Below, in pieces: positions 1,384 to 23,893 of a stretch of 29,104 bases of DNA (its first letter is position 1; every line of letters starts with the position of its first letter). The notes below the pieces were generated by a model, which saw only the letters and a program-made list of their open reading frames with translations, made no database searches and had not been told where the DNA came from. The stretch is from a virus. The stretch lies in IMG/VR virus record IMGVR_UViG_3300025874_000059, positions 1 to 29,104 of that record; one strand, given 5' to 3'. Both the position numbers and the translations under genes were made by a program.

Positions 1384-2235
1384 TTAGTAGCCTCCAAATG
1401 TATTTGTACTTGTTTTAGTAGGTTCATTATACGAACCGGATTGTATAGTTGGAGGTAAGGGGTTTAATATAGAACCCGTTGGTATAAATTCCAAATAGTC
1501 ATGGGCTTCCATTTTATGTTGTCTTCCAACCATTGGTCCTTTTTCAGGATGTATATGGTAATAACCTATATAAGCTTTTTTAGTTTTAGTATATCTTATT
1601 TCTTTCCCATTACTGTACAAATTTTCATTTTTACCGTAATTATAATATTGAGAGTATTTTTTATTAAAATAGTTTGAAAAACCATATATTTGTTGGTTTT
1701 GTTCAGTTAATCTTACACTATTATAATTAGATTTAGATACTTCTTTTTCTTTACCCGTTAACGCCCAAGTCAGTTGGATTGGGGTGTATTTACCAAATTG
1801 AACTGATGGGGATTTGTTTATGAATTGTTGGTATATTTGTTGGTTTGTTTCTTGTGTTGTTCTTTGTGGAAAGGTGTATAAAAAATACCTATTAAAAAAC
1901 CCATTTTTATAATCTTGGGGGGTAGGTTGGGGATTAGTTTGTTTAGGAGATTGGGGAGCTCTACCAAGTTTAAAACCTTGTTGTTTTTGTAAAAATTTAT
2001 AAGAAGGTGACCAATAAGTGTCTTGAATTATTTCTAAATCATTTCCATAATCAACATCATCCCTAATAGGTACTAATACATCATTTGGTTTATCATCAGG
2101 ATTTTTTCCTGTAAATCTTTGATTATTAGAAACTTGATAGTAATATCCTTTATATGGTTTGCTAGTAAAAGAAATCATATATTCATCACCATTAGTGTAT
2201 AAATTTTCTACTATTTGTGATTTAGGATAATACAT
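1384..2235 (-). CDS. Putative baseplate/tail structural protein with an internal duplication
   Basis: 283 aa and not assignable to a named T4 protein. It is the last gene of the tight baseplate operon, with only 2 bp separating it from the hub-lysozyme gene, so a baseplate or tail-tip role is inferred from position. The N-terminal segment around residues 10-45 (ENLYTNGDEY...PYKGYYYQ) resembles the C-terminal segment around 205-255 (ENLYSNGKEI...AYIGYYHIHPEKGPMVG), suggesting two copies of one small domain separated by a Gln/Asn/Pro-rich linker. The second copy ends in a His-rich stretch (GYYHIHP, GRQHKMEAHDYL) that could bind metal; this is speculation. No signal peptide or membrane segment is visible. 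Confidence 0.7.
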   Translation of the reverse strand: MYYPKSQIVENLYTNGDEYMISFTSKPYKGYYYQVSNNQRFTGKNPDDKPNDVLVPIRDDVDYGNDLEIIQDTYWSPSYKFLQKQQGFKLGRAPQSPKQTNPQPTPQDYKNGFFNRYFLYTFPQRTTQETNQQIYQQFINKSPSVQFGKYTPIQLTWALTGKEKEVSKSNYNSVRLTEQNQQIYGFSNYFNKKYSQYYNYGKNENLYSNGKEIRYTKTKKAYIGYYHIHPEKGPMVGRQHKMEAHDYLEFIPTGSILNPLPPTIQSGSYNEPTKTSTNTFGGY

Positions 2236-2237
2236 AA

Positions 2238-5200
2238 TTATGATGTTGGGTTTCCGGGGTTATCTGTAAACCAAATATCTGCTTCTTCCATTCTTCTTGA
2301 TTGCAGTAAAGTTGGTTTATCTTTTGTTCCTATAATTGTTTTTTCTAATTGATACCCCGCCGATACATAGTCTTTAGAATTAATAAAATTATATAGTGGT
2401 TTTTTAGGATCTGAAACTCCATAACCAGAATTATAAGAAAAATGTAAAAGGGCATCATATTCATTTTGAGTAAGGGGGACTTTTATTCTCCCATTTGCAA
2501 CCATATTTTTACCAAAGTTGGTTGCAACGTCATTAAATCCTTTATTAGCGGATTCTTCTGTAATTGTGTCTCCTAACCGAATTTCAGATGAGCTGTTTCT
2601 TCCAAATGCCCCATTATATGTTAATAATTGAGGTTGTGAGTTAGATCCTATTGGGGTTCGAGTATACTGTTGGCCAGGGGTATAAAAAGTTTGTCCATAT
2701 CCTATTGTAACAGGTTTTCCATCATCCGCACCTGGGTCATCGTATGCTTTCAACCTTAATGCCTCTGATTTTTTAAGCTTTTGTCTAATAAAATTAGAAG
2801 GAGTAAGTTGAGTAGCAGGGAACCTTTGTGCCGTACCATTTATACTTCTATCTCCTGAAATGACTAAAGGGTTAGATTGGTCTAATCCTAAGAAAGAAAA
2901 TAACCCATTATCAATTAATTCAGTGTTTTCAATTTTAGTAGGGGGAATACTAATAGTAACTAATTGAGTTTCCCATTTTTCATCCACTATTTGGTGGTTT
3001 ACTTTTTGAATAACAAAATCTATTGTATTAGTTAAAGCACTAGATATATATTCGGGTGGTAAAAATTTTTGGTTAATATTTAATTTTTGGTATAGTTTAA
3101 CTCCTGAAATACCCTCCAATGTTAAACTTAATTCTACAGGAATAAATCCTTGTTGATTTGAGGGGTTACCTGTTAATCTATATATTTTTTGATCCCTTAG
3201 TCTAATATATTCTTTAAATGCTTTTTTTCCTTGACTAGAAAATGTAGAATTTGCTACATTAAGATATAAAGCTTCTCCTGGGGTAACTGTAAAGTCTTCC
3301 CCTTGTTCGTTTGTTTTACCTACGATTATACCACTAAAGGCATATATAAGCCAAGATTGGTAAGAAGAAGATAAATCAATATCATCCTGTGTTAATACAT
3401 TTAACCCTGCTCCTTGTTTCCATGAAATATAACCACTTATAAAACTTTCAAGTGATTCATTTTGAAAAGAATATCCTTTATATTTACCTGACTTTGTTGA
3501 TAAAATTATATATCCACCATTTCTAGCATACTGTTTACCACTTTGGTCTTTATCCCAAATTAATTTATTTCCTGAGTCTTTATTGGCTTCTGATGCTTCT
3601 TTATCTTCTTTAGCTACATAATCAGCAGCATGACTTCTTGCACCTCGTTTACCTTGACCTTGCTTAAAGGGTTTAGTTTTTCCCCACCATGATGTTAATT
3701 CTTCTCGTATTACTTCTTGTTTGTTATTTTCATTATCTTGTTCTCTTTCAGTTGGGGTTTTAAATTCACTAGGAAGGACAATTTTCTTTTGAAATCTGTC
3801 TTGAAGACCTGCATTCCATTTTGAAAAAGCTGTTCCATCTGTAACTTTAGTAGTTGACCCCCCGGCTGTAGTTCCTATGGTTATCATAGAAGCTAAATTA
3901 GAATCTATTTTAGTAGCAAAATTAAAGTTTTTTACAAAATTTGATTGATTGTTAGATGAATTAAATCCAAAAATTTCAAAAGGAACAACATCTGTTGGGT
4001 CTGGGACTTTAGAGAGTAATTTTTTGATTAGTAGATCATTGCCTTTTATAGGGTTTTGATCAATAAATACTATTTCATTTCTTTCAGAATTGATAATGGG
4101 TTCAATTTTGTTTACACTACCTAAGGAACTATTTATACCATCGCATATACCTTCTAAAAAATTAAATAAACTTAATTCATTATCTTTTGATATATTTCTT
4201 TTTAATAACTTTTTTATAAATGAAAAATTTAAGTATATGTTCATTAATTTTCCATAAAATAAATCTTTATCACCCTCATGTTCAAGAACAAAAAATTCCT
4301 TAATCCAATTACTTCGAAAAATAGATGGAACAGTTACCCCATTAACATAAATTTGAGGTTTAACAAAACAAATATTAAGATCAAAAGATATCTGGTTGGG
4401 TTGGGCGCTGACAACATTTAAGTTTTCATCTAACCCCATAGATAATATAGGTACTGCTTCTTTATTTTCTACTTTAGGAAGAATATTGTTATAAATTTTT
4501 GATAATACTTCACCAAAAGTAACAAAATAACTATTTTCTTTAGTAAGACCATCAACAATCCCTAATTTACCACTTAAACCAGGATTTTTTTTGAGCATTT
4601 TTTGATATTCTTCTTCTGCTTTTCTTTTTCTTTTTCCTTGATTTCCTCTTTTATTTTCATCATTAAATTCAAAACTTGGAGGTTCTTTATAGTTTATACT
4701 TTTAAGATTAATATATTTACCATTACCCCATACAGCTTTATTTTCAGTATCCGCCTTTACTTCATCATCTAACCATTGTTCTAAAGTAGTATCAGCAGTT
4801 GTTTCCCCATCTGCATTAGCTTTAAAAGATTTTATTGGAGCCGGAAGATTTAACTGTAAAGATTCTATAACATCTCCTAATGTAGTAAGTTTTAAAGTAA
4901 TATTATATACACCATCAGGTGAGAAATCCCAATTAAAATTTGTTACTCTACCAAAAAACCCATCATAGTTGCCTGAGTATTTCTTTCTATATGTTTCTAT
5001 TTTTTTTAATAATTCTAATTGACTATATCCTTGATTATCAAAAAATATATCTTCTATTATTGTATTTTCTACTTCTCTTAAACTCCCAGAATTATCTACA
5101 TATTTGTTAAAACCCCATTCTAACATCATAGTAAAACCTAATCTTAAATATAATAATTCAATAAGTTGAAATTGAAATGTATTATAAGCTTTTAATTGTA

Positions 5201-5834
5201 TTGTTGCAGATCTAATTGAACCTCTATTTATACAATCAATTTTCGCTGAGGTTATACCAGGCATAGGTTGTTTTCCAAATTGATTTCCTCCTAAACCATA
5301 TGCTGAAGTATCGTTCCAAATATTATCTGAAAAGTTTATGTCTGATCTTTGGGAAATTTTTCCATTTTTTAGTTCTCCTAACCCACCAAATAGTATAGAT
5401 TGTTTAGCTAAAGTTTCTTCACCCCCATATTGTTTTATTTGGGCTTCCGAAAATCCTAGGTTTTTTAATTTAGTTTTAGCTTCAGATAATTGTAATTTAT
5501 TATTTTCTTTTATTTGTTCAGAAATTAATTTATATTTTTCTTTACCTTGTTCAGATAATACAGGTAGATAAGGGACTACAATTTCATAGTCTTCGTCTTT
5601 TAAAATCCCACTACCTGCTTGGTCTTGAAATTCCTTTTCTGTTGGGATGATAGATGGGTTATAAAAATTAACTCCAGAAGCTAATTTTAAAAAAGAATTT
5701 TTATTATTTTGAAGTTGGATTTGATTTGGGGATTTTAATTTTGACCCAAACCCCACACCACTAAGCTCTTGTCGAGCTCGGATTTGATCGAATACATATG
5801 TATCAAACTGTTCTCCTATTAAATTTCCGGTCAT
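2238..5834 (-). CDS. Giant baseplate hub protein with C-terminal T4-type lysozyme domain
   Basis: 1198 aa. Roughly residues 1013-1198 form a GH24 (T4 lysozyme-like) muramidase: EALRLKAYDD at 1024-1033 followed by TIGYG from 1043 aligns with T4 lysozyme E11, D20 and T26, giving the candidate catalytic residues E1024, D1033 and T1043. A 4-residue insertion lies between D and T, and a ~35-residue insertion follows TIGYG. The later LTQNEYDALLHFSYNSG and SRRMEEADIW segments also fit the family. The first ~1000 residues look like hub or baseplate structure. In T4 the hub lysozyme belongs to gp5 and the hub ring is gp27; here a much larger protein carries the enzyme at its very C-terminus. The likely role is local peptidoglycan digestion during injection. 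It sits between a gp53/LysM-like gene and another baseplate-operon gene, with 2-bp gaps on both sides. The exact T4 counterpart of the N-terminus is uncertain. Confidence 0.85.
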   Translation of the reverse strand: MTGNLIGEQFDTYVFDQIRARQELSGVGFGSKLKSPNQIQLQNNKNSFLKLASGVNFYNPSIIPTEKEFQDQAGSGILKDEDYEIVVPYLPVLSEQGKEKYKLISEQIKENNKLQLSEAKTKLKNLGFSEAQIKQYGGEETLAKQSILFGGLGELKNGKISQRSDINFSDNIWNDTSAYGLGGNQFGKQPMPGITSAKIDCINRGSIRSATIQLKAYNTFQFQLIELLYLRLGFTMMLEWGFNKYVDNSGSLREVENTIIEDIFFDNQGYSQLELLKKIETYRKKYSGNYDGFFGRVTNFNWDFSPDGVYNITLKLTTLGDVIESLQLNLPAPIKSFKANADGETTADTTLEQWLDDEVKADTENKAVWGNGKYINLKSINYKEPPSFEFNDENKRGNQGKRKRKAEEEYQKMLKKNPGLSGKLGIVDGLTKENSYFVTFGEVLSKIYNNILPKVENKEAVPILSMGLDENLNVVSAQPNQISFDLNICFVKPQIYVNGVTVPSIFRSNWIKEFFVLEHEGDKDLFYGKLMNIYLNFSFIKKLLKRNISKDNELSLFNFLEGICDGINSSLGSVNKIEPIINSERNEIVFIDQNPIKGNDLLIKKLLSKVPDPTDVVPFEIFGFNSSNNQSNFVKNFNFATKIDSNLASMITIGTTAGGSTTKVTDGTAFSKWNAGLQDRFQKKIVLPSEFKTPTEREQDNENNKQEVIREELTSWWGKTKPFKQGQGKRGARSHAADYVAKEDKEASEANKDSGNKLIWDKDQSGKQYARNGGYIILSTKSGKYKGYSFQNESLESFISGYISWKQGAGLNVLTQDDIDLSSSYQSWLIYAFSGIIVGKTNEQGEDFTVTPGEALYLNVANSTFSSQGKKAFKEYIRLRDQKIYRLTGNPSNQQGFIPVELSLTLEGISGVKLYQKLNINQKFLPPEYISSALTNTIDFVIQKVNHQIVDEKWETQLVTISIPPTKIENTELIDNGLFSFLGLDQSNPLVISGDRSINGTAQRFPATQLTPSNFIRQKLKKSEALRLKAYDDPGADDGKPVTIGYGQTFYTPGQQYTRTPIGSNSQPQLLTYNGAFGRNSSSEIRLGDTITEESANKGFNDVATNFGKNMVANGRIKVPLTQNEYDALLHFSYNSGYGVSDPKKPLYNFINSKDYVSAGYQLEKTIIGTKDKPTLLQSRRMEEADIWFTDNPGNPTS

Positions 5835-5836
5835 AA

Positions 5837-6133
5837 CTATCTTTCATTTAAAATTCGAAACTCACTTATTAATTGAGCCGTGTTTTGAGGTATTCTAATT
5901 TGAATACCTATTGGAATATGGTATGAATTTTGTTCTAACCCTGGATTAGAGCATGATATAATCCACCAGAGTTTAGCATCGCCATAATGTTGTTGTGCTA
6001 ATTGATCAAATCTATCATCTTCCTGAGTAACTACATAAATATCATTTGAACTATAAGGTACAACAGGATATTTAGTAGTCCCATAGTATTTAATTCCTCT
6101 TCCATATATATTTGTAATTGAATATCTATCCAT
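5837..6133 (-). CDS. gp53-like baseplate wedge protein with LysM-type fold
   Basis: 98 aa. The central part (residues ~30-85: NDIYVVTQEDDRFDQLAQQHYGDAKLWWII, then SYHIPIGIQIRIP) has the LysM / tail protein X pattern: a strand, a helix with the xLAxxxYGDxxLWW signature, then a 'P.G..IRIP' strand. T4 gp53 is a LysM-containing baseplate wedge protein, and phage P2 gpX is another small tail LysM protein, so the assignment is to this class rather than to a proven orthologue. It lies 2-4 bp from its neighbours within the baseplate operon, which supports co-translation with the hub components. Confidence 0.72.
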   Translation of the reverse strand: MDRYSITNIYGRGIKYYGTTKYPVVPYSSNDIYVVTQEDDRFDQLAQQHYGDAKLWWIISCSNPGLEQNSYHIPIGIQIRIPQNTAQLISEFRILNER

Positions 6134-6137
6134 AATA

Positions 6138-8009
6138 TTAATTTATTCCTTTTGCTTTTTTAGTAAATACATCACCAACTAAGTCTGTGCCTTCTTGATT
6201 AGTTGTTGAAGAGGGTATAGTAAAGTTTTCAGAACCATTATTACCATCATAATTGTTTCCATTTTTATTCCTTAAGGCAATATACCTTTCATCACCCCAA
6301 GCAGATACAAAAGTAGAACCATTTTCAGTTAAACCCTCAAATGTGTTTTGTTGAATCCTTGGGACAAAATTATGTATAGGTTTAAATTCAAAACCGGTTA
6401 CAGTCATTATCATAGGTAATTCTTTAGTCTTTTTTCCCCCATCATTTGCCCCTGTTTCACTATCAACATCTATTTCAAATGGGGATTCTTTTGGGTAGGA
6501 TAAATTTAATCCAGTAATTATACCAGGTTGTTCATAACAATAACCTCCAAAAGTTAAATATGCAATATTTCCTTGCATGTAACCATTAGAACTGTAATCT
6601 GGGGCTAAACTTGAAGCCAGATAATTTAATTTTTGGTACATAGGAATTAATTCATCAATGGATTGGGCTGCTAATGTCCACCCCATAGATATTGATCTAC
6701 CAAAACCACCATATCTAAAGAAGCTTTCAGCTCTACCCATAAATTTTTCTTCACCCCATTGTGCTGAGTAATTATCTGAAAATGAATCTATAAATGCTCT
6801 AAAATGAATATACCTTTTTAATCCTTCAGGATTATTAGCATTATTATCTAATATTCCGATTCTAAATTTAATAAAATCATTTTTAATGTTGTTTCCAGCA
6901 TTTATTACATTAGTAGATTGGTAAAGAGGAAGGGCATTTAACTTATCTAAAGGACCAGTCCCAGTTCCAATATTGTAGTTTGATAAGTTTTTGTTTCTTC
7001 TTCCAGGATTACCAATATTAACTCTTTCTTCAAAATTCCCATTTGCACCACTTTGGTAATCTATGGTTGTTGAGATTAAAGAATTTGGTTTTCCTGGGTC
7101 TAGTGAAGTCCTAAAATCAGGTAATATTTGGTCTTTTGATTTTCCTACTTTAGAATCTGCAGCCGAAACTATTCCACTATAGTTGAGTAATTTAAATTCC
7201 TTTTTAAATTCTTCATTATCATATAATTGAGTATTAGTAGCTCTTCTTATAGTAGTTTGACCTACTCCTAAAATAGAGCCTGGACCTCCATTGTATCTTA
7301 GTATCTCTTGTTGGTTATCATTTATTCCTAACCCACTGTTACTATTTTTACCAAATAAATTATTAAGTAAACCACCACCAAATCCTTTTATACCCCCTCC
7401 AGTTAAAGAACCTAAAAAAGTATCAATGGAATTATTAGAATCGGTTTGTGCTACTCCTATTTTAGCTCCAACTAAATTTACTAATCTATTTGTTTCTGGT
7501 AGTTGTTTATTATTAACTCTCTTTACATATATAGGCTGTTCTAAAGGAAGCTCAGCATTTAGTATATTATCTAGTAACCCAATACCTGTATTAGCACCTG
7601 ATTGTGATGTGTTTTTAAAAGGGTTTATACCTTGTTTTAATAAATGTGATCCTGCAGATCCTACTGCTAGTTGAGCTAAAGTAGAAGTTGGAAGGTATAC
7701 CCCATCATTTATAGGGTTAAAAGATACATCTGAGCTGGATTGAATTTTTACTGAAGTACGAGATAAAATATTTTGTTTTGCAGCAAATTGTAACCCCTTA
7801 GGGGATATCATAAATTTACCCATTCGAGATAAATCATCACCTACATGCTGTAAAGTGTTTGCTCTTAAAAGAAAATCAGGACCACCAGTATCTCCAGGAG
7901 TACTGTCAATAGATTTGGTAATAAAAGGTTCTCTACTATCACCACCACCTATACGGTCTTGTCCATACCTTAATGATTTAAGGTCTGTTGTTAAATCTAA
8001 AAGCCCCAT
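6138..8009 (-). CDS. Baseplate structural protein, possibly gp48/gp54-like tube cap or initiator
   Basis: 623 aa. The N-terminal ~350 residues are Gly/Asn/Ser-rich and look like an extended structural segment. The C-terminal ~230 residues form a compact β-rich domain (starting around FIKFRIGILDN and including FRAFIDSFSDNY near residue 403, SMGWTLAAQSIDELIPMYQKLNYL, and a conserved-looking end at MTVTGFEFKPIHNFVPRIQ). It sits downstream of the tape measure and upstream of the gp53-like gene, where tube-cap or baseplate-hub genes are expected, so gp48/gp54-type function is inferred. The FRAFIDSF octapeptide also occurs in the gp15-like protein encoded at 20544-21467. It begins with MGLLD, as does the small protein encoded just upstream. 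A baseplate role is likely; the precise T4 equivalent is not proven. Confidence 0.72.
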   Translation of the reverse strand: MGLLDLTTDLKSLRYGQDRIGGGDSREPFITKSIDSTPGDTGGPDFLLRANTLQHVGDDLSRMGKFMISPKGLQFAAKQNILSRTSVKIQSSSDVSFNPINDGVYLPTSTLAQLAVGSAGSHLLKQGINPFKNTSQSGANTGIGLLDNILNAELPLEQPIYVKRVNNKQLPETNRLVNLVGAKIGVAQTDSNNSIDTFLGSLTGGGIKGFGGGLLNNLFGKNSNSGLGINDNQQEILRYNGGPGSILGVGQTTIRRATNTQLYDNEEFKKEFKLLNYSGIVSAADSKVGKSKDQILPDFRTSLDPGKPNSLISTTIDYQSGANGNFEERVNIGNPGRRNKNLSNYNIGTGTGPLDKLNALPLYQSTNVINAGNNIKNDFIKFRIGILDNNANNPEGLKRYIHFRAFIDSFSDNYSAQWGEEKFMGRAESFFRYGGFGRSISMGWTLAAQSIDELIPMYQKLNYLASSLAPDYSSNGYMQGNIAYLTFGGYCYEQPGIITGLNLSYPKESPFEIDVDSETGANDGGKKTKELPMIMTVTGFEFKPIHNFVPRIQQNTFEGLTENGSTFVSAWGDERYIALRNKNGNNYDGNNGSENFTIPSSTTNQEGTDLVGDVFTKKAKGIN

Positions 8010-8250: not shown

Positions 8251-10266
8251 TTATTGTATTTGTCTAGAACCTACAGCAAAAGCAGTACCTACATTAGTAC
8301 TATCCATTTGAACTGTTCCTTCTTTACTTAAAATTTGTTTTAATAACATGTTTGTTTCACTCATATTAGCATTTCCTCCTGCTCCACCTTGTGTATTGAT
8401 ATTTGGAGAAACGGCAATACCATCTCCTGCTGCTGTAATATCCGTTGCACCAAATCTATCTGTAATAGTAAATGGTCCTTTTCCTGGAGGTGCAACTCCA
8501 TCTGCTACTGTTGATGCTATTCCCCCAACAACAGCTCCTGCAAGTGCTATTCCTGCTAATATAGGTAGAGAGGCAACACCAAATGTCATTGCAATTGCAA
8601 CTGCTGCTGCGGCTGCTGCTGCTACTAATAAATATTTACCAAAAGATTGAACTCCTTCAGATAATTTAGTCATTGCTCTTGTTTGCATTTCTGTTAAAGA
8701 TTGCATTTCCTCATTTGCTAGAACCTCATCTGATTTTCTATCTAAATCTTCTTGGGCCTGGGTGGATAATGCTTCTTGGCTTACTAAACTATCTGCTAAT
8801 TGGTCTGCACTCATTCCTAAGGCGCCCGCTAATGCTTGTTGTTGAATAACATTCATATTTTGTAGTTCTTCTAAACTACCTGCTTCTTCAACTAATGCTC
8901 TAGCTAATGCTTCTTGATCTCCTGCTAAAGCTGCTGCCCTAGCTTTTTCAAGATTTAAATCTCTACCAATTAACAATTCTGCCTCTAATTCTTTTTGGAT
9001 AGAAGATTCAAAATCTAATAATTGTCCTGCAGACCCTGCAACAGCACTCATTTCAATACCCAAAGATTTTGCTGTGGCAACTGCTTTTGTTAAACCACCT
9101 TCAATACCCATAGCATTAACTCGGGCTAAACCTGTTATTTTATTAGCTTCATCTAAAACATCTGATAATTTTAATCTAATACCAAATTCTCTTTCAGCAT
9201 CTAAAACTCCTTTTGCTTGTTCTTTTTCTAATGCTTTAAAACTTTTACCCGCAATCATAGCTTGTTTAGCCATGTTACCTACTGCTTCTTCTGATAATCC
9301 AAGCAATGCAAGTGATTCAGCTGCTCCTTCTCTAATATCTTTATCAAAGGCAATAGCCGTTCCCCCTAAAGCTTTATTTAGGGACATTACTGCTTTTTTC
9401 TGTTCTTTTATAGTAATACCAGTAAGACCTGCTGCCTTACTAGATTCATACATTTCATTTTTAAACTCCTTAGCTTCTTTTTTAGACATGCTAAGACCAC
9501 GAGCAATTTCAGTTGTAGATTGATCTGCCTTTTTAAATTGATCAAATAAAGCACCAGCTACTTTAAATAAAGCCCCTGCTGCACCTAACCTAACTGCAGA
9601 TTTATCTATATTTTCAAATAATTTTTTACTTAAATTCCTTGCATTTTGTAAACCTGTAACTTGTTTACCTGATGCATCCGATTGTTCTTTATTTAATTTT
9701 GCTGCTTCCGCTGCTGCTTTCTTAAAATTAAACAGCTTAGCTATACCACCTGCACCTGCCTTTTGGAGTATTCCTTCAACCCCATCAGCTAATTTACCCG
9801 CTATTCCTAAACTTTCTCTTTGTTTTTTATTTTGTGCCTCAAGGTTAGCTAGTATTTTTTTATCTAACGCAAAAGTTTCTTCTAAGGCAGAAATCTCATC
9901 TATGTTAAGTTGAACCCCTTCTCTTTTAAGGAATTCTATTTTTCTAAGGGTTATTGATTGTTGTTTTTGAACTTTTTCAACTTCTTTAATAAGTTCCGCT
10001 TCTATATCATACCCTGCAGCTACCTTTTTTTGAATAGCCGCATAATTATCTAATTGTTTAGAAGTTTGGTTTATAGCAGAAGTTATATCCCTACTATATG
10101 ATTTATATAATTTTTGAGTGGCATCATCGGCACCCTTTATTTTATCAGAAATTTGGGATTGAATAGAAGCACCTAAAGAAAGTAGTTGGTTATCTAAAGC
10201 TCCAATTTCCTCAGAAAATTTCTGTATTTCATCATTAGCTTTTTTTACATCGTCTCCTAAGGCCAT
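8251..10266 (-). CDS. Tail tape measure protein
   Basis: 671 aa. Residues 1-160 are heptad-rich coiled coil (Glu/Lys/Gln/Leu). A long helical central region rich in Ala and Glu follows. A strongly hydrophobic stretch around 550-590 (YLLVAAAAAAAVAIAM, then a Gly/Ala membrane-like segment) is followed by a short Gly-rich C-terminal tail. This helical architecture with a hydrophobic segment is typical of tape measure proteins, which set tail length and may enter the host membrane. It lies directly after the gp26-like gene and the out-of-frame chaperone ORF, as chaperone genes precede the tape measure in many tailed phages. The T4 tape measure gp29 is of similar size (about 590 aa). No peptidase or lysozyme motif is seen here; lysozyme is on the 1198-aa hub protein instead. 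Confidence 0.8.
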   Translation of the reverse strand: MALGDDVKKANDEIQKFSEEIGALDNQLLSLGASIQSQISDKIKGADDATQKLYKSYSRDITSAINQTSKQLDNYAAIQKKVAAGYDIEAELIKEVEKVQKQQSITLRKIEFLKREGVQLNIDEISALEETFALDKKILANLEAQNKKQRESLGIAGKLADGVEGILQKAGAGGIAKLFNFKKAAAEAAKLNKEQSDASGKQVTGLQNARNLSKKLFENIDKSAVRLGAAGALFKVAGALFDQFKKADQSTTEIARGLSMSKKEAKEFKNEMYESSKAAGLTGITIKEQKKAVMSLNKALGGTAIAFDKDIREGAAESLALLGLSEEAVGNMAKQAMIAGKSFKALEKEQAKGVLDAEREFGIRLKLSDVLDEANKITGLARVNAMGIEGGLTKAVATAKSLGIEMSAVAGSAGQLLDFESSIQKELEAELLIGRDLNLEKARAAALAGDQEALARALVEEAGSLEELQNMNVIQQQALAGALGMSADQLADSLVSQEALSTQAQEDLDRKSDEVLANEEMQSLTEMQTRAMTKLSEGVQSFGKYLLVAAAAAAAVAIAMTFGVASLPILAGIALAGAVVGGIASTVADGVAPPGKGPFTITDRFGATDITAAGDGIAVSPNINTQGGAGGNANMSETNMLLKQILSKEGTVQMDSTNVGTAFAVGSRQIQ

Positions 10267-10302: not shown

Positions 10303-10587
10303 TTACTTATAACTAGTTTTATTTTGAAACTTAGGTTGATTTACTTGACCCTTAGTATTAACTAAAGAATCTTTGTCTTTAGATTTATTTGCTTTTTCAT
10401 TTTGGGACTTATTGTACTCATTTATTTCATGGAAAGTAAATTTACGTAACCAAATAGGCATATTATATATCGTAAACCAATCATAGCCTCCATTTCCATG
10501 GAAGACTATGTTATGTATTTGGGTAAATAAATTTTTTCTGTATATTGGGCTATTTTCCAAAGTCAGGCCAAAAAAATCCAACCCCAA
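10303..10587 (-). CDS. Tail assembly chaperone-like ORF, probably a frameshift extension
   Basis: A 94-codon frame overlapping the end of the gp26-like gene by 38 bp. The only start at its 5' end is TTG (10587); the first internal ATG is in YNMPIWL near residue 43. The segment GGYDWFTIYNMPIWLRKFTFHEINEYN resembles small tail-chaperone proteins of other tailed phages, in which a '(M)P.(W/Y)LR.F' core is followed by a charged tail. Its frame is +1 relative to the upstream gene, and the overlap contains GGA TTT TTT TGG (a T7 run) where a P-site Phe-tRNA could slip forward by one base. Position just before the tape measure matches the lambda G/GT arrangement. Either TTG initiation or a programmed frameshift fits; I favour the frameshift. 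Confidence 0.6.
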   Translation of the reverse strand: MGLDFFGLTLENSPIYRKNLFTQIHNIVFHGNGGYDWFTIYNMPIWLRKFTFHEINEYNKSQNEKANKSKDKDSLVNTKGQVNQPKFQNKTSYK

Positions 10588-11284
10588 TTGGAATTGTTTT
10601 TGTTGTTTCGCTACTTGAGGGAAAAAAAGTTAAATCTACATCTGGTGACATTGATTTAATGTATTCTCTAAGCGCACGAGCATCTCGTGCTAGCAGATAT
10701 TTATCTACAAATTCTCGAATATCTTTTTTATCTGTTTTTCCTTCAACTGAAAGTATTGTGTGTTTTAATCTTGTAGTAAGAGTAGGGTCCGATTCTTTAT
10801 TTATTTTCTTTAAACCATCCAGTTCACGTTGAATTTTTGTTTCATCCCCGTGATTTAATAACTTAAAAACAATTTCATTCCCAGAATGTGGGAATGTAAA
10901 GTTAAATTCATTTTTACCTGATTTAAACAAATCTTCATCTATAGTTGTATTTTCAATATCTGTTAAATCTACAGTTTCTTCTATCCCATCAAATGCAAAA
11001 GTGTAATCTTTACCATATCCTAAGATACGGGCCGCAATCATAATGGCGTTTTTATCCCCAATTAATAAATCATTATAATCTATTTTAGAAACAATTAATG
11101 ATTGAAATAATTTATCTAATACTGTTCCTTTTTGAATGTAAGAAGCATTGGTAAGAATGTCTTCTTCTTTAGCTGTCATATATTTAATTTCAATTTTTCC
11201 ATCAGCTAATGGTGAATCCTTTGAATATAAATACCCTTTAGAAGGTAAGTCTACTATTTCTGTTGCTAGTTTAAAATCTGCCAT
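10550..11284 (-). CDS. T4 gp26-like baseplate/tail assembly protein
   Basis: 244 aa. The N-terminal region (IVDLPSKGYLYSKDSPLADGKIEIKYMTAKEEDILTN, about residues 10-47, then KGTVLDKLFQSLIV) matches the pattern of the T4 baseplate-protein family that includes gp26, where 'LPS.G..Y' and 'MTA.EEDILT' are hallmarks. T4 gp26 is about 208 aa and takes part in baseplate hub assembly. Proteins of this type immediately before the tape measure can also act as tail assembly chaperones, and the overlapping +1 ORF here strengthens that idea. A core-only variant of the promoter-like motif lies at 11316-11325. The stop codon falls inside the overlap that holds the possible slippery run. Confidence 0.75.
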   Translation of the reverse strand: MADFKLATEIVDLPSKGYLYSKDSPLADGKIEIKYMTAKEEDILTNASYIQKGTVLDKLFQSLIVSKIDYNDLLIGDKNAIMIAARILGYGKDYTFAFDGIEETVDLTDIENTTIDEDLFKSGKNEFNFTFPHSGNEIVFKLLNHGDETKIQRELDGLKKINKESDPTLTTRLKHTILSVEGKTDKKDIREFVDKYLLARDARALREYIKSMSPDVDLTFFPSSSETTKTIPIGVGFFWPDFGK

Positions 11285-15398: not shown

Positions 15399-17195
15399 TT
15401 ATTCTATTCTATTATAAATATCACTTTCTAATTTAGAAGTAAGGTTTATTAGTTCATTATTATGATAATATCCCAGGTCTTCTATTTTAGAAAAATATAC
15501 AGTAAATTGTTTATCATTTAAGGTAATATCCTCTCCATTTACTCTTATCTTTATTTGTTTTTCTTCAAAATTATCATATATAAAAACTTTATTTTCAGAA
15601 AAAAACAATTTGTATTGATCATTACTTTTATTATAATTTAATACATCAGGGTTTCCTGTATTTAACATTCCTACAATTTCAGTTTCAACTTTAACATAAT
15701 TAAAATTAGAAATTAAATGACCCCAATATGCTTCTGCATCTGTAAAAGATTGTCCCGTTGTTGGGTTTGAGCTAGTATATTCTTGTTTGGATATTAAGTT
15801 ATTAATTCTGTTAGCATTTTCTTTACTTAAAATATTAAATAATAGGCTTGGGAATAAAGAGGCATTAGTAGTAGGATCTTTAAAATCACTACATATAAAA
15901 TCTTTTGGATTATTAATCATATTTAACACCCCCTGAGTTATTTCTATATCGTAATTTATAAAAGAATAGTGAGAATAATCTAAATTTTGACAAAAAGCAA
16001 TAGCATTCTTCTTTAAATTGAAAACTGTCCACCCATAATCATTCATCATATGTGATATTTTTATTGGAGGTTTTTCACCACATGGTGTACATTCAATATT
16101 AACGCTTTTCCAAAATACCATTCCTCTTTCAGGATATTTTAGAATAGGATTACTCTTATCATACACTAAATAATCTATATTATTTTGAATTTCTATTGGA
16201 AGAGGGGAATGGGTAGATACCAATATATCATATTTATCTTTTAATGATAAAATCATATTGGATAATAAGTCAAGTTTACGTTGGGTATCGCAATAACATA
16301 AAATAATAACTAAATTTTTATTTTTCATAATATTATAATCATTAAATGCTTTTTCTAAAGTTTTAGCACTTTTGGGTTTTACTGAAGGGTCTGGTCCGTG
16401 TATAAAATAGGGTTCTAATGAAGATTTATCGTACATAACATCAAATCCTTGTTTTAAAAAATATGGGTTAACTAAAGTTTCTTCTTTTGAACTATAATAG
16501 TTATTCCAGGTAATTGGTAAATCTAATATTTTGTTTTCTTCCCATAATACATTATTTGCTACTCTTTCTTCGGAAAAAGCATTGTCATCTGCATATAGTT
16601 TAAGGCTATAATTATTTAATTCTTTATTCCATTCTAAACATTTTTCAAAGAATGGTTTACTATCCCTATTATAAAAATAAAAATTAGCGGCTAATAATTT
16701 TTGGTTTGGGTTTCTTTTAATGTTCTTTATAGCAGCTATCTCACCCCCATAATTACCTTCTAATCTTATACCTTTATGATGTCTCCATTGATTAATGTCT
16801 TTATGAAAATATTGAGCAAATAAAGGGTAATCCTTTAAAGATGATAAGTATTGTAAAGAGTTATCGATATTTTCAGTTACAAAAGCATCACCATCTATCC
16901 ATGCAAAGTTATTATAATTTTCTTCTAATGAATCTAGATTTGCTAAATACTTAGCAAAATATATAGAATAATCTTTATGAAATAAATCGGGTTCATGTGT
17001 AGAATTTATAGTAGGTTTAGGATTATAATTAATTCTTTTATTAGTTACATTAGGTAAATCAATTGTAGAATCACAATTAAAACCATATACTATAAGTTTG
17101 TATTCTGAATATTTTAGTAAACTTTTAGCAAGTACCTCAATCATTGATAAATAATTTTGGTTCCCTCCTGTTGTCCAAACAAATTTATTATTCAT
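15399..17195 (-). CDS. Two-module glycosyltransferase (GT-A type)
   Basis: 598 aa. Residues 1 to ~285 form a GT-A-like module: FVWTTGGNQNYLSMIEVLAKSLLKYS at the start is typical of GT8-like enzymes, and NNFAWIDGDAFVTENID at 96-110 contains the metal/nucleotide-binding DxD (D101-G-D103). From about residue 291 a second module begins (KNLVIILCYCDTQRKLDLLSNMILSLKD, then DILVSTHSPLP), which looks like another nucleotide-sugar transferase or a degenerate relative. No membrane segment is evident, so it is probably cytoplasmic. The start overlaps the preceding glycosyltransferase by 8 bp, implying translational coupling. It is the last gene of the five-gene cassette; donor and acceptor are unknown. 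The first module is assigned with good confidence, the second with less. Confidence 0.72.
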   Translation of the reverse strand: MNNKFVWTTGGNQNYLSMIEVLAKSLLKYSEYKLIVYGFNCDSTIDLPNVTNKRINYNPKPTINSTHEPDLFHKDYSIYFAKYLANLDSLEENYNNFAWIDGDAFVTENIDNSLQYLSSLKDYPLFAQYFHKDINQWRHHKGIRLEGNYGGEIAAIKNIKRNPNQKLLAANFYFYNRDSKPFFEKCLEWNKELNNYSLKLYADDNAFSEERVANNVLWEENKILDLPITWNNYYSSKEETLVNPYFLKQGFDVMYDKSSLEPYFIHGPDPSVKPKSAKTLEKAFNDYNIMKNKNLVIILCYCDTQRKLDLLSNMILSLKDKYDILVSTHSPLPIEIQNNIDYLVYDKSNPILKYPERGMVFWKSVNIECTPCGEKPPIKISHMMNDYGWTVFNLKKNAIAFCQNLDYSHYSFINYDIEITQGVLNMINNPKDFICSDFKDPTTNASLFPSLLFNILSKENANRINNLISKQEYTSSNPTTGQSFTDAEAYWGHLISNFNYVKVETEIVGMLNTGNPDVLNYNKSNDQYKLFFSENKVFIYDNFEEKQIKIRVNGEDITLNDKQFTVYFSKIEDLGYYHNNELINLTSKLESDIYNRIE

Positions 17196-19479
17196 TAAGT
17201 AAAGGTTTTATTTTATGTAATACTTGTTCTACGGAAATAGATTTTTGGCAAATATGTTGTTTATGTGTTCCCTTATTTTCTGGGCACCAATCCCAGTCCC
17301 CTGCATCGAATACATGAGTATTATGAGTCCAACAATTATTACATACGTTATGGTTTTCAATTTTAGTTAAGTTATTAGGTATGTCATACCCATAAGGAAC
17401 AAAATTATTTATCATTATTGTATGTTTATTTAAAGCCCAGTTTATCCAAGATAATCCTGATCCTAGTCCTATAAATAAATCGGAATGGTGTATATAATTA
17501 AATAGTTCATCCCAAGGTAATTTTGATTTATCTATTATATTAGTTCCCTTAAAACCATTTAAAGTTAAACTAACTACTTTATAACCCTTAGAATGTAATA
17601 TCTTAGCTAAATTTCTCCAATTTTCATGAGGCCATTCTTTTAACCCAGATGTTGATTGAGGTCCTATACAAACATATTTTCCTTTTATAGGTCTTTTATG
17701 TGGGGTAAAATTAATACCATGGTTTATAGGAGTATAAGGAATATTTAAAATATCACTTGATGTTTTTATTAAAGGGATAGTATTTACTTGGTTAGGATGG
17801 TCGGAGAAATTTTTCCATCCTCCTTTTTCATCTCTAAACCACCCAATTTGGAAATGGGCATAACTTGGGGGGTTATCTCCAGGGTTTACGAATGTTATAT
17901 CTTTATATGGTTTTAAATTTTTAAACCACTCATTATGGAATGTGCTAACTATGACATTACATTTATATTTATTTTTAAATTCTACTATTTGAGGTGCCCA
18001 AGCTAAGGTATCTCCTATTGATTTTGATTCAAATGATATTTTTACAGTTTTATCTTTTAAACTAAAGGTGTGTACTATTTTACCATTTATTTTTATTATC
18101 CAAGGTATATGATAGCTTTTATTACATTTAGTCCACATATTGTTACTGATAGTACTACTATGAAGGGTTTTATTAGTAGACCCATCTATAAATTCAACAA
18201 AATATTTGTTGTTATGATGACCTAGTACTTCTACTTTAGGACCTAAATTAAAACTTATTTCCACTTTATTCTTAGGTAAACTTTCTAACAAATCTTCAAT
18301 TTCTTTACCTGCGATTTTAGCAGCATTTTCCCATGTAAATTTTTCTCGTATTTCAATAGATTCTTTTAATGCCCGTTTTTTATGTTTTTTATAGTTAATA
18401 TAAGCATCTCTCATTACTTTTTTTAAGTCATTAAAATCGGGATCATAAAATTCCCCCTCTAACATTTCTTGAGAAAAACTACTATATTCACCTTTTTTAG
18501 CTTTTGATGTAGATAATATGTTTACAGGTAATCCTAATCCCTCTGCAAATTCTAATTGTGCACTACAGTTAGAATAAATGGAGGGAGTACCACAAGCCAT
18601 AGCTTCAATTAGAGGTAAATTCCATCCTTCTGATCTTGCGCAAGATAAAAAAACATGCCCCTTTTGTAAATACTTAATGTATTCTTTCCTAGTTGGGAAA
18701 TGTTTTATTTTAATTCTGGGGTCATTTAAATTATAGTTTTTAAGTCTATTTTCTGTAGATTTAAATTCATCTTTAGCATAGGGGTTATCAATAGATACTA
18801 TTAAATCCACGGGTTCATCCTCATTAAATTCTTGTAAAAAAGATTCTATAATTTCCTTAGTAGATTTTCTATAATCCCACCTACCAAATAAAATAAATTT
18901 AAACCTATTATCTTTATATTCTGGGAGGGTTGATTTATTATTAGGTTTAAAAATTGACCCATCTACAGCTTCAGGTACTACTTTTACTTTATGAGGTTCT
19001 ATTCCTTGTTCTATAGTACAATCTCTTTGCCATTTAGAAGCAACCCAAACTTGATCAAAAGTTTTTAATTGATTGAAAAAATAATCAGGTTGTCTTGTAG
19101 TTTCCCAAACATTATAAGCAATCTTAGGACCATCATAGTTTTGATAGAAAAAATGATGGTTAGTTTCATTAAGGATAATATTTACATTATGTTTAAAAGT
19201 GTTTGGGTGTTCTTTATAAAAGGGGTAATGTTGAAGGGAATTATCATTATCCCATAAAGATTGTTCTACTAATAACTTTTTATCTTTACTATCAAAATCT
19301 TCTTCCCCATTATGAGGTTCATCATTAAAACCATCCCAAGATTTACCTATTGTAAAGTTTCTAACCTTTAAATCATAGAGGTTAGAAAGTTCTCTATAAA
19401 ATGCTCTAGTATGATTTGCATACCCCGTAGTCCCTATATAACTACCATGTGAAAATATTTTAGGCTTTATCTTTGTCAT
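17188..19479 (-). CDS. Fusion glycosyltransferase: GT4 domain plus TibC/BAHT-type O-heptosyltransferase domain
   Basis: 763 aa in two enzymatic halves. Residues 1 to ~400 are a GT-B, GT4-like transferase: a Gly-rich start (HGSYIGTTGYANH), FILFGRWDYRKS near 195-206, and the E-x7-E motif (E284 to E292 in SEGWNLPLIEAMACGTP). Residues ~405-763 resemble the bacterial autotransporter heptosyltransferase (TibC/Aah, GT9-related) family: SIGDTLAWAPQIVEF at 487-501, YVCIGPQSTSG at 602-612, GLGSGLSWINWAL at 671-683, and a terminal four-Cys metal finger with C713, C716, C732 and C744 (VCNNCW...DWDWCP...ICQ). TibC-type enzymes O-heptosylate Ser/Thr-type sites in repetitive surface proteins and use an iron finger. 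A fusion with a GT4 domain in a phage tail operon is unusual. It overlaps the upstream gene by 20 bp and the downstream one by 8 bp. A sugar other than heptose is possible. Confidence 0.85.
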   Translation of the reverse strand: MTKIKPKIFSHGSYIGTTGYANHTRAFYRELSNLYDLKVRNFTIGKSWDGFNDEPHNGEEDFDSKDKKLLVEQSLWDNDNSLQHYPFYKEHPNTFKHNVNIILNETNHHFFYQNYDGPKIAYNVWETTRQPDYFFNQLKTFDQVWVASKWQRDCTIEQGIEPHKVKVVPEAVDGSIFKPNNKSTLPEYKDNRFKFILFGRWDYRKSTKEIIESFLQEFNEDEPVDLIVSIDNPYAKDEFKSTENRLKNYNLNDPRIKIKHFPTRKEYIKYLQKGHVFLSCARSEGWNLPLIEAMACGTPSIYSNCSAQLEFAEGLGLPVNILSTSKAKKGEYSSFSQEMLEGEFYDPDFNDLKKVMRDAYINYKKHKKRALKESIEIREKFTWENAAKIAGKEIEDLLESLPKNKVEISFNLGPKVEVLGHHNNKYFVEFIDGSTNKTLHSSTISNNMWTKCNKSYHIPWIIKINGKIVHTFSLKDKTVKISFESKSIGDTLAWAPQIVEFKNKYKCNVIVSTFHNEWFKNLKPYKDITFVNPGDNPPSYAHFQIGWFRDEKGGWKNFSDHPNQVNTIPLIKTSSDILNIPYTPINHGINFTPHKRPIKGKYVCIGPQSTSGLKEWPHENWRNLAKILHSKGYKVVSLTLNGFKGTNIIDKSKLPWDELFNYIHHSDLFIGLGSGLSWINWALNKHTIMINNFVPYGYDIPNNLTKIENHNVCNNCWTHNTHVFDAGDWDWCPENKGTHKQHICQKSISVEQVLHKIKPLLNE

Positions 19480-19678
19480 TTAAACCAAATTTACTATATT
19501 TGTACCATAATCGTTCGTGAAAAAAATACAAAATCATTTTTGTAAATACCTCTACACCACCAATAGCTAAACCAGTTGTCCAACTACCTGTTATAACACC
19601 TGATAGGATAATAGTATCTATTGTTCCTATTATTCTCCATGAAAATGTTTTAGCAATATGTCGTTTATAGCTTACCAT
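19460..19678 (-). CDS. Small DUF2061-type membrane protein
   Basis: 72 aa. The sequence KRHIAKTFSWRIIGTIDTII, a hydrophobic first segment (residues ~17-33), a Gly/Ala-rich second segment (~34-55), and the terminal ILYFFHERLWYKY fit the DUF2061 (PF09834-type) pattern, whose hallmark is the 'K..LY..HER.W' end. These are small integral membrane proteins of unknown biochemical role, sometimes encoded next to adenylylsulfate kinase genes. Here a CysC-like kinase gene is two genes upstream. The start overlaps the nucleotidyltransferase gene by 14 bp and the stop overlaps the next gene by 20 bp. It could anchor the cassette's enzymes at the membrane; that is inference. Confidence 0.8.
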   Translation of the reverse strand: MVSYKRHIAKTFSWRIIGTIDTIILSGVITGSWTTGLAIGGVEVFTKMILYFFHERLWYKYSKFGLNDKDKA

Positions 19679-20063
19679 CTTTTTTCATTTGTTTTCTGAT
19701 ATTAGTAGCAGATACATCTCTTATTTCTTCAGGGGGTACGTGTTCTATTATATCATATCCTACACCTCTACCTATATTTATAGATTCAATATCAGGTATA
19801 GTAATTATTTTTACTCTACCCTGTTCTACCAAATCCTTTAATTCGATTTGAAGGTTTGCTTCTACTTCTTTTGAAGTCCATGGGTTTTTTTCATCAGGTT
19901 CAATGTCCCTAATACAGATTAATACATTTTTTCCGTTATCTAAACGTTGATCAATTAACCAACGATGCCCTTGGTGCCAAGGTTGCCATCGTCCAATATA
20001 CATCGAATACTTTATTTCACTATCTGAGGATTTGAATGCTGCTTGTGCTAAGTATTTTTTCAT
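19665..20063 (-). CDS. Cytidylyl-/adenylyltransferase-like nucleotidyltransferase (HxGH family)
   Basis: 132 aa. The class signature is complete: YIGRWQPWHQGH with HQGH at 30-33 binds the nucleotide phosphates, and SATNIR at 118-123 is the C-terminal ISxTxxR-type motif. Compact members of this superfamily include NadM-type NMN adenylyltransferase and glycerol-3-phosphate cytidylyltransferase. Which nucleotide and which acceptor are used cannot be told from sequence alone. It is not a classical ATP sulfurylase, because the sulfurylase QxRNPxHxxH motif is absent. The gene overlaps the CysC-like gene by 4 bp (ATGA arrangement) and the DUF2061 gene by 14 bp. A plausible job is activating a small molecule for the glycosyltransferases encoded downstream. 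A second in-frame ATG at residue 21 (just before YIGRW) is an alternative start. Confidence 0.82.
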   Translation of the reverse strand: MKKYLAQAAFKSSDSEIKYSMYIGRWQPWHQGHRWLIDQRLDNGKNVLICIRDIEPDEKNPWTSKEVEANLQIELKDLVEQGRVKIITIPDIESINIGRGVGYDIIEHVPPEEIRDVSATNIRKQMKKDGKL

Positions 20064-20491
20064 ATTTGATTTAAGATTTTTTGTAAAGATTCTTCAGGTG
20101 TATCATCTGTCGTATCTATACTAATAAAATTTTCTTGGGGACCAATATACGCTATTGCTTTAAAATGGTCACGTTCTCTTAGTTCTGTTGTGTAAGTATA
20201 GATTTCTTTAATATTATCACCTAGTAGGGTTTTAAAATCTTCTCTTTGATCTAAATAGGGGGATACTAAAGAAACTATAACATCGTTCCCTTGGTTGTGT
20301 AAATAATGTGCAATACGTTGAGCGGTACCAACATTTTCAACTCTACCTTTAATAGAATAGTCCTTATTAGAAAATAATTCTCGCATATCATCCCCATCTA
20401 TTCTATAGGCGTTGGGGAGATGTTTATCTTGAAGTAAATCAGCTAAAGTTGTTTTACCATGAGCTGGTTGGCCAGTAAACCAATATATCAT
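20060..20491 (-). CDS. Adenylylsulfate kinase (CysC)-like P-loop kinase
   Basis: 143 aa. Walker A is at residues 7-14 (GQPAHGKT); DGDDMR at 32-37 corresponds to the LDGDxxR motif of APS kinases; SLVSPYLDQRE at 74-84 corresponds to the SPYxxxR motif. Bacterial CysC is usually about 180-200 aa. Here the segment after the RD.KG-like position is very short (ELRERDHFKAIAYIGPQENF), so most of the lid region that closes over APS, including the FTGxxxxYExP stretch, is missing. The kinase fold is clear, but APS as substrate is uncertain; phosphorylation of another hydroxyl compound is possible. It is the first gene of the five-gene cassette, 52 bp after the gp15-like gene, with no promoter-like motif copy in that gap. 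Confidence 0.8.
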   Translation of the reverse strand: MIYWFTGQPAHGKTTLADLLQDKHLPNAYRIDGDDMRELFSNKDYSIKGRVENVGTAQRIAHYLHNQGNDVIVSLVSPYLDQREDFKTLLGDNIKEIYTYTTELRERDHFKAIAYIGPQENFISIDTTDDTPEESLQKILNQI

Positions 20492-23227: not shown

Positions 23228-23893
23228 TTAATTTTTTACTACCAAATATTTAGAACCACTTGTAGCATTACCACTTAACCATAACCTCCCAGATTCTGCT
23301 GGTTCTGAAGTTGGTAGATTATATAAGTAAAATTCTGTCCCATCAATTGATCCTGAAAATGAACCAGATAATGAGCCTGTTATATCAGCAGATCCTGTAA
23401 AAGAACCAGATAATGAGCCTGTTATATCAGCAGATCCTGTAAAAGAACCAGATAATGAGCCTGTTATATCAGCAGATCCTGTAAAAGAACCAGATAATGA
23501 GCCTGTTATATCAGCAGACCCTGTAAAAGAACCTGTAAATTTACCATCGAACCCACCTGATATTAAACCATCAGCTTCAAGTGATAAAGAACTTGTAATT
23601 TGTCCTACTCCTGATCCACTTACAAAGACTATAGACCCATTACTAACAAACAATTCTTTCCAAGGTTTTTCTTGTGTACCTAAAGTTGCTTCAACTTCTG
23701 CAGGAATAATACTCCCGGAGAATAAAGAAGAGCCTAATACTTCAAGTGCGTTATTAGCCCCATCTGAACCTGAAATTATAAAGGGACCTGAAGATGCGGT
23801 TATTGCATGAGATCCTGTAAAGTATCTAAAATTATCATCTAGTTCGTCAATTGTTAATGCTGAACCTTTTACTGATCTATAAGTTAATGCCAT
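23228..23893 (-). CDS. Short fibre-like virion protein with Ser/Thr/Gly repeats
   Basis: 221 aa. The N-terminus (MALTYRSVKGSALTIDELDDNFRYF) is of a kind common on phage fibre and virion-attachment proteins. From about residue 118 to 176 four near-identical copies of a 14-residue unit (SGSFTGSADITGSL) follow, suggesting an extended β-rich or β-helical shaft. The C-terminus (YLYNLPTSEPAESGRLWLSG) looks like a small capping or decoration domain. The repeats are identical at nucleotide level, too. The dense Ser/Thr content makes this protein a candidate acceptor for the glycosyltransferases encoded at 15399-19479; that link is inference. It has its own promoter-like motif and terminator. Confidence 0.75.
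   Translation of the reverse strand: MALTYRSVKGSALTIDELDDNFRYFTGSHAITASSGPFIISGSDGANNALEVLGSSLFSGSIIPAEVEATLGTQEKPWKELFVSNGSIVFVSGSGVGQITSSLSLEADGLISGGFDGKFTGSFTGSADITGSLSGSFTGSADITGSLSGSFTGSADITGSLSGSFTGSADITGSLSGSFSGSIDGTEFYLYNLPTSEPAESGRLWLSGNATSGSKYLVVKN
23367..23534. repeat. Four tandem 42-bp repeats inside the fibre gene
   Basis: Four head-to-tail copies with a 42-bp period start at 23367, 23409, 23451 and 23493. The first three are identical over the unit; the fourth differs at 23519 (C for T) and diverges at its end. They encode the 14-residue Ser/Thr/Gly unit and keep the frame. A partly matching, diverged segment lies at 23349-23366. Confidence 0.95.

Follow-up and report, generated by a model that had tools for sequence, protein, structure and literature searches.

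The nearest described case to the protein reported here is gp147 of the Bacillus phage 0305phi8-36, a gp27-type hub far larger than T4 gp27 which bears peptidoglycan-cutting domains at its ends, these being replaced between genomes; in gp147 and its BtI1 homologue, conserved structure domains are fused with exchangeable domains (PMC2147016). Phage T4 likewise combines the gp27 fold with a lysozyme at the tail tip, but there the lysozyme lies in the middle of gp5, a separate protein with an oligonucleotide/oligosaccharide-binding (OB) fold and a β-helix, and a maturation cut follows the lysozyme (PMC3004832). In the present work a virus record of 29,104 bases was analysed (IMG/VR record IMGVR_UViG_3300025874_000059, the whole of which is called the window), in which one open reading frame (ORF) of 1198 residues appears to join a hub of the gp27 type to a GH24 lysozyme at its extreme C-terminus. 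The original prediction for this ORF, made from the letters alone, had contrasted it with the split of these roles between gp27 and gp5 in T4 and with the mid-gp5 lysozyme, and the contrast agrees with what PMC3004832 describes. The protein very probably serves a contractile tail as its central hub, of the gp27 type, with a C-terminal slot for a peptidoglycan-cutting domain that has been refilled over evolution.

The hub-lysozyme protein

The ORF and its parts are as follows.

2238..5834, minus strand: hub-lysozyme ORF, whole, 1198 residues, ATG start (ORF reading)
2937..5834, minus strand: hub core, residues 1-966, predicted gp27-type fold with large insertions (AlphaFold model and VIA-align matches at about 42-966)
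2787..2936, minus strand: linker, residues 967-1016 (predicted local distance difference test score, pLDDT, below 50 for 967-1000; exchange junction of the relatives in or near the linker start)
2283..2774, minus strand: GH24 lysozyme domain, residues 1021-1184, with E1024, D1033 and T1043 (Pfam match and residues read off)
2574..2693, minus strand: stretch from TIGYG to GDTIT holding the insertion, residues 1048-1087 (sequence reading)

Read on the plus strand, the frame 2238..5834 is full of stops; the original prediction gives no strand for it. The complete C-terminal GH24 domain proposed for it is borne out by Pfam (Phage_lysozyme PF00959, E value 1.9e-13, profile positions 1-125 of 125, with a score of 51.3 bits where the cut-off is 22.3), by PHROG 7 'endolysin', which matches the end of the ORF (E 2e-17), and by solved lysozymes aligning to the same end by sequence (top 9kbs_A, E 6e-07); 14 residues follow the Pfam match up to the C-terminus. 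The catalytic residues of GH24 form an E-D-T motif, to which E1024, D1033 and T1043, named in the original prediction and read directly from the translation, conform, and the glutamate and TIGYG are present in all 14 GH24 tails sampled (pattern check). The window lysozyme would be expected to be active. The insertion of about 35 residues after TIGYG that had also been noted is a fair description, as the Pfam match covers 164 residues for 125 profile positions. The spacing between TIGYG and GDTIT is 40 residues in the window protein and, counted by eye, 30-36 in the counted GH24 relatives of the same group and about 13 in L028 from the other GH24 group, relative to which the window insertion amounts to about 27 residues. 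Among the first relatives found in IMG/VR (loci are denoted by L numbers), L002 and L003 (62-63% identity in the best segment) keep both the gene order and the C-terminal GH24 domain, and the arrangement of hub and GH24 is therefore not due to chance; at the same place L004 bears a DUF2272 domain and the isolate Flavobacterium phage immuto, in its 938-residue gp033, a VanY domain.

The hub fold was modelled for window residues 1-1000 from an alignment of 49 hub parts, all of them from the window and IMG/VR loci. Among the 50 matches listed by VIA-align, the first 49 are, by title, entries of baseplates or tail tips, tailocins, contractile injection systems or VgrG, with Z scores of 6.5-11.7, and 42 of the 50 reach at least 8.0. 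They include cyanophage A-1(L) (Z 11.7, 262 aligned residues), the pyocin R2 hub (6u5h_A, Z 10.8, 279 aligned), phi812 (9euf_E, Z 10.5, 283 aligned), T4 gp27 (1k28_D, Z 10.1, 215 aligned, 4.5 Å), Mu gp44 (1wru, Z 9.7, 282 aligned) and a VgrG chain (8gra_G, Z 9.3). The fold matches span model residues of about 42-966, i.e. up to the start of the linker.

Several points weigh against this assignment. The confidence of the model is middling (mean pLDDT 71.1, predicted template modelling score, pTM, 0.58), VIA-align itself warns that middling Z scores are common and that a 1000-residue model is a hard case, Foldseek gave no match in the PDB at E ≤ 0.001 (the best, at 1.4e-3, being a phi812 baseplate chain), and residues 1-1000 match no Pfam or PHROG family. 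A search of PDB sequences with the hub profile likewise returned nothing trusted. The T4 gp27 profile (Phage-tail_1, PF09097) did not match the ORF, and no control passed its cut-off either. Mu gp44, too, is described as having no detectable sequence similarity to gp27 (PMC3004832), so that a Phage-tail_1 match does not define the fold family. The hub reading of the original prediction thus finds its support in the predicted structure of the N-terminal part, which resembles gp27-type hubs, and residues of about 42-966 are, at the level of the modelled fold, well supported as a gp27-type hub.

It had further been suggested that the lysozyme may be released by proteolysis, or displayed otherwise than on the T4 spike; in the former case a protease would detach it from the hub at maturation, leaving a free enzyme. 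A linker of about 50 residues, predicted to be disordered over 967-1000, does separate hub and lysozyme, and in T4 gp5 a cut falls within the linker that follows the lysozyme domain (PMC3004832); moreover, in the alignment the linker start of the window visibly resembles that of L004 despite the different tail of the latter, which might point to a shared site. A free enzyme, however, need not be part of the hub chain, yet the domain is found there in 138 of the 139 hubs described below, which is an argument of economy only. We consider such a release unlikely, and it would be compatible with the lysozyme occupying a refillable slot of the hub.

Replacement of the C-terminal domain

Two profile scans of IMG/VR gave 339 and 416 relatives, of which 80 were kept each time, and the tail classes given below (tail denoting the residues that follow the hub) therefore describe a sample. 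The scan patterns lay inside the hub, so that relatives were not selected by their tails. In the first set of 82 loci, a hub match was obtained for 81 (L001, which is the window itself, is not counted) and 69 had a closed 3′ end; from the second set of 80, five were discarded because they repeated an earlier contig or genome (L085, L157, L159, L161 and L162) and six for an open 3′ end, which left 69. The total is 139 hubs with a closed 3′ end including the window and immuto, some of them cut at the 5′ end, and 137 of the 138 relatives are IMG/VR contigs. In every one of the 138 scored relatives the match extends to hub profile position 889-896 of 896; the hub filter required only position 850, and all it removed were the first halves of L128 and L132, whose hubs are split. 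Tails were defined so as to be in frame with the hub, and their in-frame state is thus no evidence. Their length is 170-369 residues in 138 of the 139 hubs, with a median of 225 over all 139, and 5 residues in L113.

The tails fall into the following classes (rows of 139).

VanY: 33 rows, three clusters
M15-like b: 28 rows, the largest single class
M15_4: 18 rows
GH24: 14 rows, two clusters
Amidase_2: 8 rows
DUF2272: 8 rows
Class A: 6 rows, without informative match in any library tried
Phage_lysozyme2: 5 rows
M23: 5 rows
AWC motif: 5 rows, PHROG 9589 endolysin (E 0.005); by eye we take these to be cysteine-hydrolase-like
DUF5675: 3 rows
Class B: 2 rows, PHROG 90 endolysin
GH19: 2 rows
Class C: 1 row, PHROG 7182 transglycosylase
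None (bare hub): 1 row

Nine Pfam families, namely GH24, VanY, M15_4, Amidase_2, M23, GH19, Phage_lysozyme2, DUF2272 and DUF5675, exceed the curated cut-off in at least one tail. VanY and M15_4 are related at the superfamily level, and nine families are thus not nine folds. By family name, M23, VanY, GH24, Phage_lysozyme2 and DUF5675 each merge more than one cluster; among the M23 rows the cluster of L115 alone passes the cut-off, L135 lies below it and L081 has no match. The tail of L163 is Phage_lysozyme2 by Pfam (4.7e-7) and also matches PHROG 181, the top PHROG of the GH19 tail L049; L163 and L164 were counted once, under Phage_lysozyme2. The amidase pattern occurs in 6 of the 8 Amidase_2 rows, and L053 and L061 show LHHTAG by eye.

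Comparison of three tail-group profiles, and of the tail L081 by itself, with the sequences in the PDB produced no match that could be trusted, and an NCBIfam scan of ten tails gave a single weak match without meaning. A Hedgehog-domain match of the M15-like b profile (E 0.067) and a syntaxin match of class B (E 0.025) were not trusted. Genomes of bacteria and archaea yielded 39 pattern matches in a collection searched for hub relatives, and none of these was a relative.

Bare hubs, which end right after the hub part without an enzyme domain, occur in L113 and, on weaker, partial profile matches, in Microcystis phage Mel-JY01 (671 residues) and in an uncultured 484-kb phage (728-residue frame); the positions of such hubs are 4992-7115 in L113, 9733-11748 in L165 and 4938-7121 in L166. 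The tail domain is therefore not universal. As a separate observation, the hub gene of L128 (2128-5999) and L132 (4175-8031) is split into two overlapping frames near hub profile positions 363-399, and each side of the break bears additional residues.

As several tails match PHROG families named endolysin, the fused domain might serve lysis at the end of infection and not entry. PHROG names denote a type of domain, not a tested role; the domain is fused to a hub-type protein, and immuto has separately annotated endolysin and lysozyme genes. A lysis function is accordingly judged very improbable.

Pairs of closely related hubs with different tails carry the case for exchange. Over 905 hub residues L061, of the amidase class, and the VanY-like L064 share 98.5% identity; the value is 92.6% over 760 hub residues for L152 and L163 and 88.6% for L033 and L042, the tails differing within both pairs, and 87.9% for L031 and L069, which bear two M15 types. 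At the DNA level L061 and L064 agree in 97.4% of 7159 columns up to L061:10290, about 70 bases beyond the end of the hub; after this position they are unmatched, and similarity is back at 11135, inside the next gene. In the same manner L012 (class A) and L009 (GH24) are about 80% identical up to L012:11120 and about 83% again from 11698, at the stop codon. After the swapped domain, DNA similarity thus resumes in the downstream gene, the counterpart of a 283-residue protein of the window (see below).

Chimeric metagenome assemblies could mimic such swaps, the more so as nearly all relatives are IMG/VR contigs and were judged from their assembled sequence. The classes, however, turn up repeatedly across many contigs, each side of one swap is represented by two contigs (L163 and L164 versus L152 and L154), and the isolate immuto has a fused VanY domain, all of which makes it highly doubtful that the swaps are artefacts of this kind.

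A tree of 106 of the 137 hubs (same-class hubs more than 97% identical were removed and the split hubs L128 and L132 left out) needs at least 26 changes of 13 superfamily states, against a mean of 49.4 in shuffled labels and with none of 200 shuffles as low, and 36 changes for 19 fine states. In the clade of the window GH24 occupies 8 of 9 rows. Close hubs mostly belong to the same class: among the 20 kept pairs of at least 85% identity, 17 share the superfamily and 3 differ, a different-class share that is inflated by the removal of same-class hubs above 97%. Clustered classes together with differing close pairs indicate that the content of the slot is passed on for a time and then replaced, again and again.

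On the opposite side of the balance stand the quality of the tree and of some class labels. The tree was built quickly and has long branches that meet, and tree errors would add changes. Classes were obtained by single-link clustering (phmmer E < 1e-12) and named from scanned representatives, some by eye, and class A is without a family assignment. M15-like b is supported by PF13539 alone (E 0.0096, below the cut-off), and the loose metal-site pattern, present in 28 of 28 M15-like b and 33 of 33 VanY rows, is found in only 10 of 18 M15_4 rows. Within the closest pair, the best match of the L061 tail itself is PHROG 1794 amidase at E 0.013 (scanned against PHROGs only), and the L064 tail lies below the VanY cut-off (22.3 versus 25 bits). 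For the DUF5675 and DUF2272 tails, cutting of peptidoglycan is putative.

That the tails simply diverged long ago together with their hubs, as the clustering of labels on the tree, the GH24 rows of the window clade and the 17 like pairs might suggest, is scarcely tenable, since hubs of 98.5%, 92.6% and 88.6% identity that bear different tails with DNA breaks on both sides contradict it, unless these pairs are assembly artefacts. At the level of sequence we take tail replacement on conserved hubs to be shown by the close hub pairs with different domains. Judged by these comparisons, domains have been exchanged repeatedly in the C-terminal slot; this is absent from the original prediction and is the more interesting fact. 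The lysozyme of the window may itself have taken part: relative to L002 and L003 the hub is 69% identical and the lysozyme core only 59-60%, and between L002 and L006 the values are 58% and 75%, which is a hint, not proof.

Gene neighbourhood and spike candidates

The genes around the hub-lysozyme ORF are the following.

8251..10266, minus strand: putative tape measure, 671 residues, relative in 75 of the 82 first-set loci (assigned by position)
6138..8009, minus strand: tail protein of 623 residues without Pfam or PHROG match, relative in 79 of the 82 first-set loci (locus comparison)
5837..6133, minus strand: Phage_tail_X or baseplate wedge (gp53-like, LysM) protein, 98 residues, directly upstream of the hub gene (Pfam, PHROG)
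1384..2235, minus strand: protein of 283 residues directly downstream of the hub gene, relative in 68 of the 82 first-set loci (ORF and locus comparison)

The gene of a gp27-type hub is expected after the tape measure and LysM/gp53-like genes, and the order in the window is putative tape measure, 623-residue protein, LysM/gp53-like protein, hub and 283-residue protein. Immuto shares this order except for one small ORF in between, and its gene in the place corresponding to 8251..10266 is annotated as tail tape measure protein. From family knowledge and gene order, the hub would be a trimer placed at the tail tip.

The original prediction had named a separate gp5/gp27 pair elsewhere in the genome as the finding that would speak against it. 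None was recognised, and this part of the outcome is weak, because the controls stayed below cut-off and most records in the searches for a spike partner are fragments. In particular, Gp5_OB and Phage-tail_1 were found in none of 12 records, the complete genome of immuto included, and 14 well-known control genomes gave none above cut-off either; Phage_base_V, phrog_1259 and PAAR were found in none of 10 records, again with the complete immuto genome. GPW_gp25, which is also a baseplate family, occurs in 5 of 10 records. The Pfam scan of the hub-lysozyme ORF revealed no Gp5 family (Gp5_OB, Gp5_C), and the T4-type layout with the OB fold before and the β-helix after the lysozyme was not encountered. 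Two candidates for a spike or tip were considered. A 139-residue protein before gp25 in immuto is helical by eye and without informative PHROG match, and was rejected; the 283-residue downstream protein, modelled as a possible tip (pLDDT 71.1, pTM 0.45), had a best PDB match of only Z 2.4. In this latter protein H227, H240 and H245 are invariant in an alignment of 24 and lie within a YHxHPxKGPMVGxxH-like motif; its relatives are often shorter, about 200-225 residues.

Elsewhere in the window, a PHROG 150 (baseplate hub) ORF is overlapped at its end by an ORF in another frame (10303-10587 and 10550-11284, minus strand). The pair sits just before the putative tape measure gene, recurs in L002, L003 and L004, and may be a programmed-frameshift tail chaperone pair. 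Amid structural genes lie two small ORFs which by eye are nucleotidyltransferase-like and of adenylylsulfate-kinase type (19665-20063 and 20060-20491, minus strand), adjoined by two ORFs that look glycosyltransferase-like (15399-19479), and 23228-23893, minus strand, encodes a protein with repeated GSFTGSADITGSLS units.

Proposed role and comparison with known systems

The GH24 lysozyme sits at the hub C-terminus on a tether of about 50 residues that is predicted to be disordered. Contraction would drive the hub into the periplasm, where the tethered lysozymes could open the wall locally, the task of gp5 in T4. Over evolution, what lies between the conserved hub end and the conserved next gene is exchanged for another domain on a hub that is retained, presumably by homologous recombination in the two conserved flanks and under pressure to fit the wall chemistry of the host. 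On balance we lean towards the broader statement that a broad phage group related to immuto uses the hub C-terminus as a dedicated exchange slot, in which glycosidase, amidase, carboxypeptidase/endopeptidase-type and other domains interchange on near-unchanged hubs, probably tracking host wall chemistry, so that the entry enzyme evolves independently of the tail machine. Hosts were seen only for immuto and Mel-JY01.

As natural pairs, these loci show that one position of a gp27-type hub accepts a wide variety of domains, for some pairs with little other change of the hub, and the role of the entry enzyme in host range or entry efficiency thereby becomes directly testable. They are also a source of hub-borne amidase- and peptidase-type wall enzymes from a group whose one cultured close member found infects Flavobacterium, a Gram-negative genus.

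Compared with T4, the lysozyme here is the C-terminus of the hub-type protein itself, which has no match to a Gp5 profile. VgrG of type VI secretion resembles the present proteins in having a gp27-like part followed by differing C-terminal effector domains (PMC3004832). VgrG, however, is described as resembling the whole gp5-gp27 complex (PMC3004832), whereas no gp5-like part was recognised here by Pfam, and the domains fused here are mostly of wall-hydrolase types and occur in phages. The needle chain of phiCD508 (9g8s_q) is among the fold matches of the hub model (Z 9.3); its baseplate is, according to its authors, without a peptidoglycan-hydrolase domain (PMC11948020) and in this respect resembles the bare hubs. 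Tal of TP901-1 and other virion-associated lysins are similarly modular, with virion-binding and lytic domains (PMC5380687). The virion-associated endopeptidases given as examples in this 2017 review come, apart from that of phi6, which has a Gram-negative host, from phages that infect Gram-positive bacteria, and the review knows of one proven virion endopeptidase among phages with Gram-negative hosts (PMC5380687), whereas immuto, the one cultured close relative here, infects Flavobacterium.

A Bacillus phage thus already provides a published example of exchangeable wall-cutting domains on a hub; neither the breadth nor the recency of the present case was found in the open literature, subscription journals and preprints lying mostly outside the search. 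In 0305phi8-36 a transglycosylase occupies the N-terminus and NLP and M23 domains the C-terminus, and the comparison covers few genomes (PMC2147016), whereas the present group has one C-terminal slot, at least nine Pfam families in 138 sampled relatives, and exchange between near-identical hubs.

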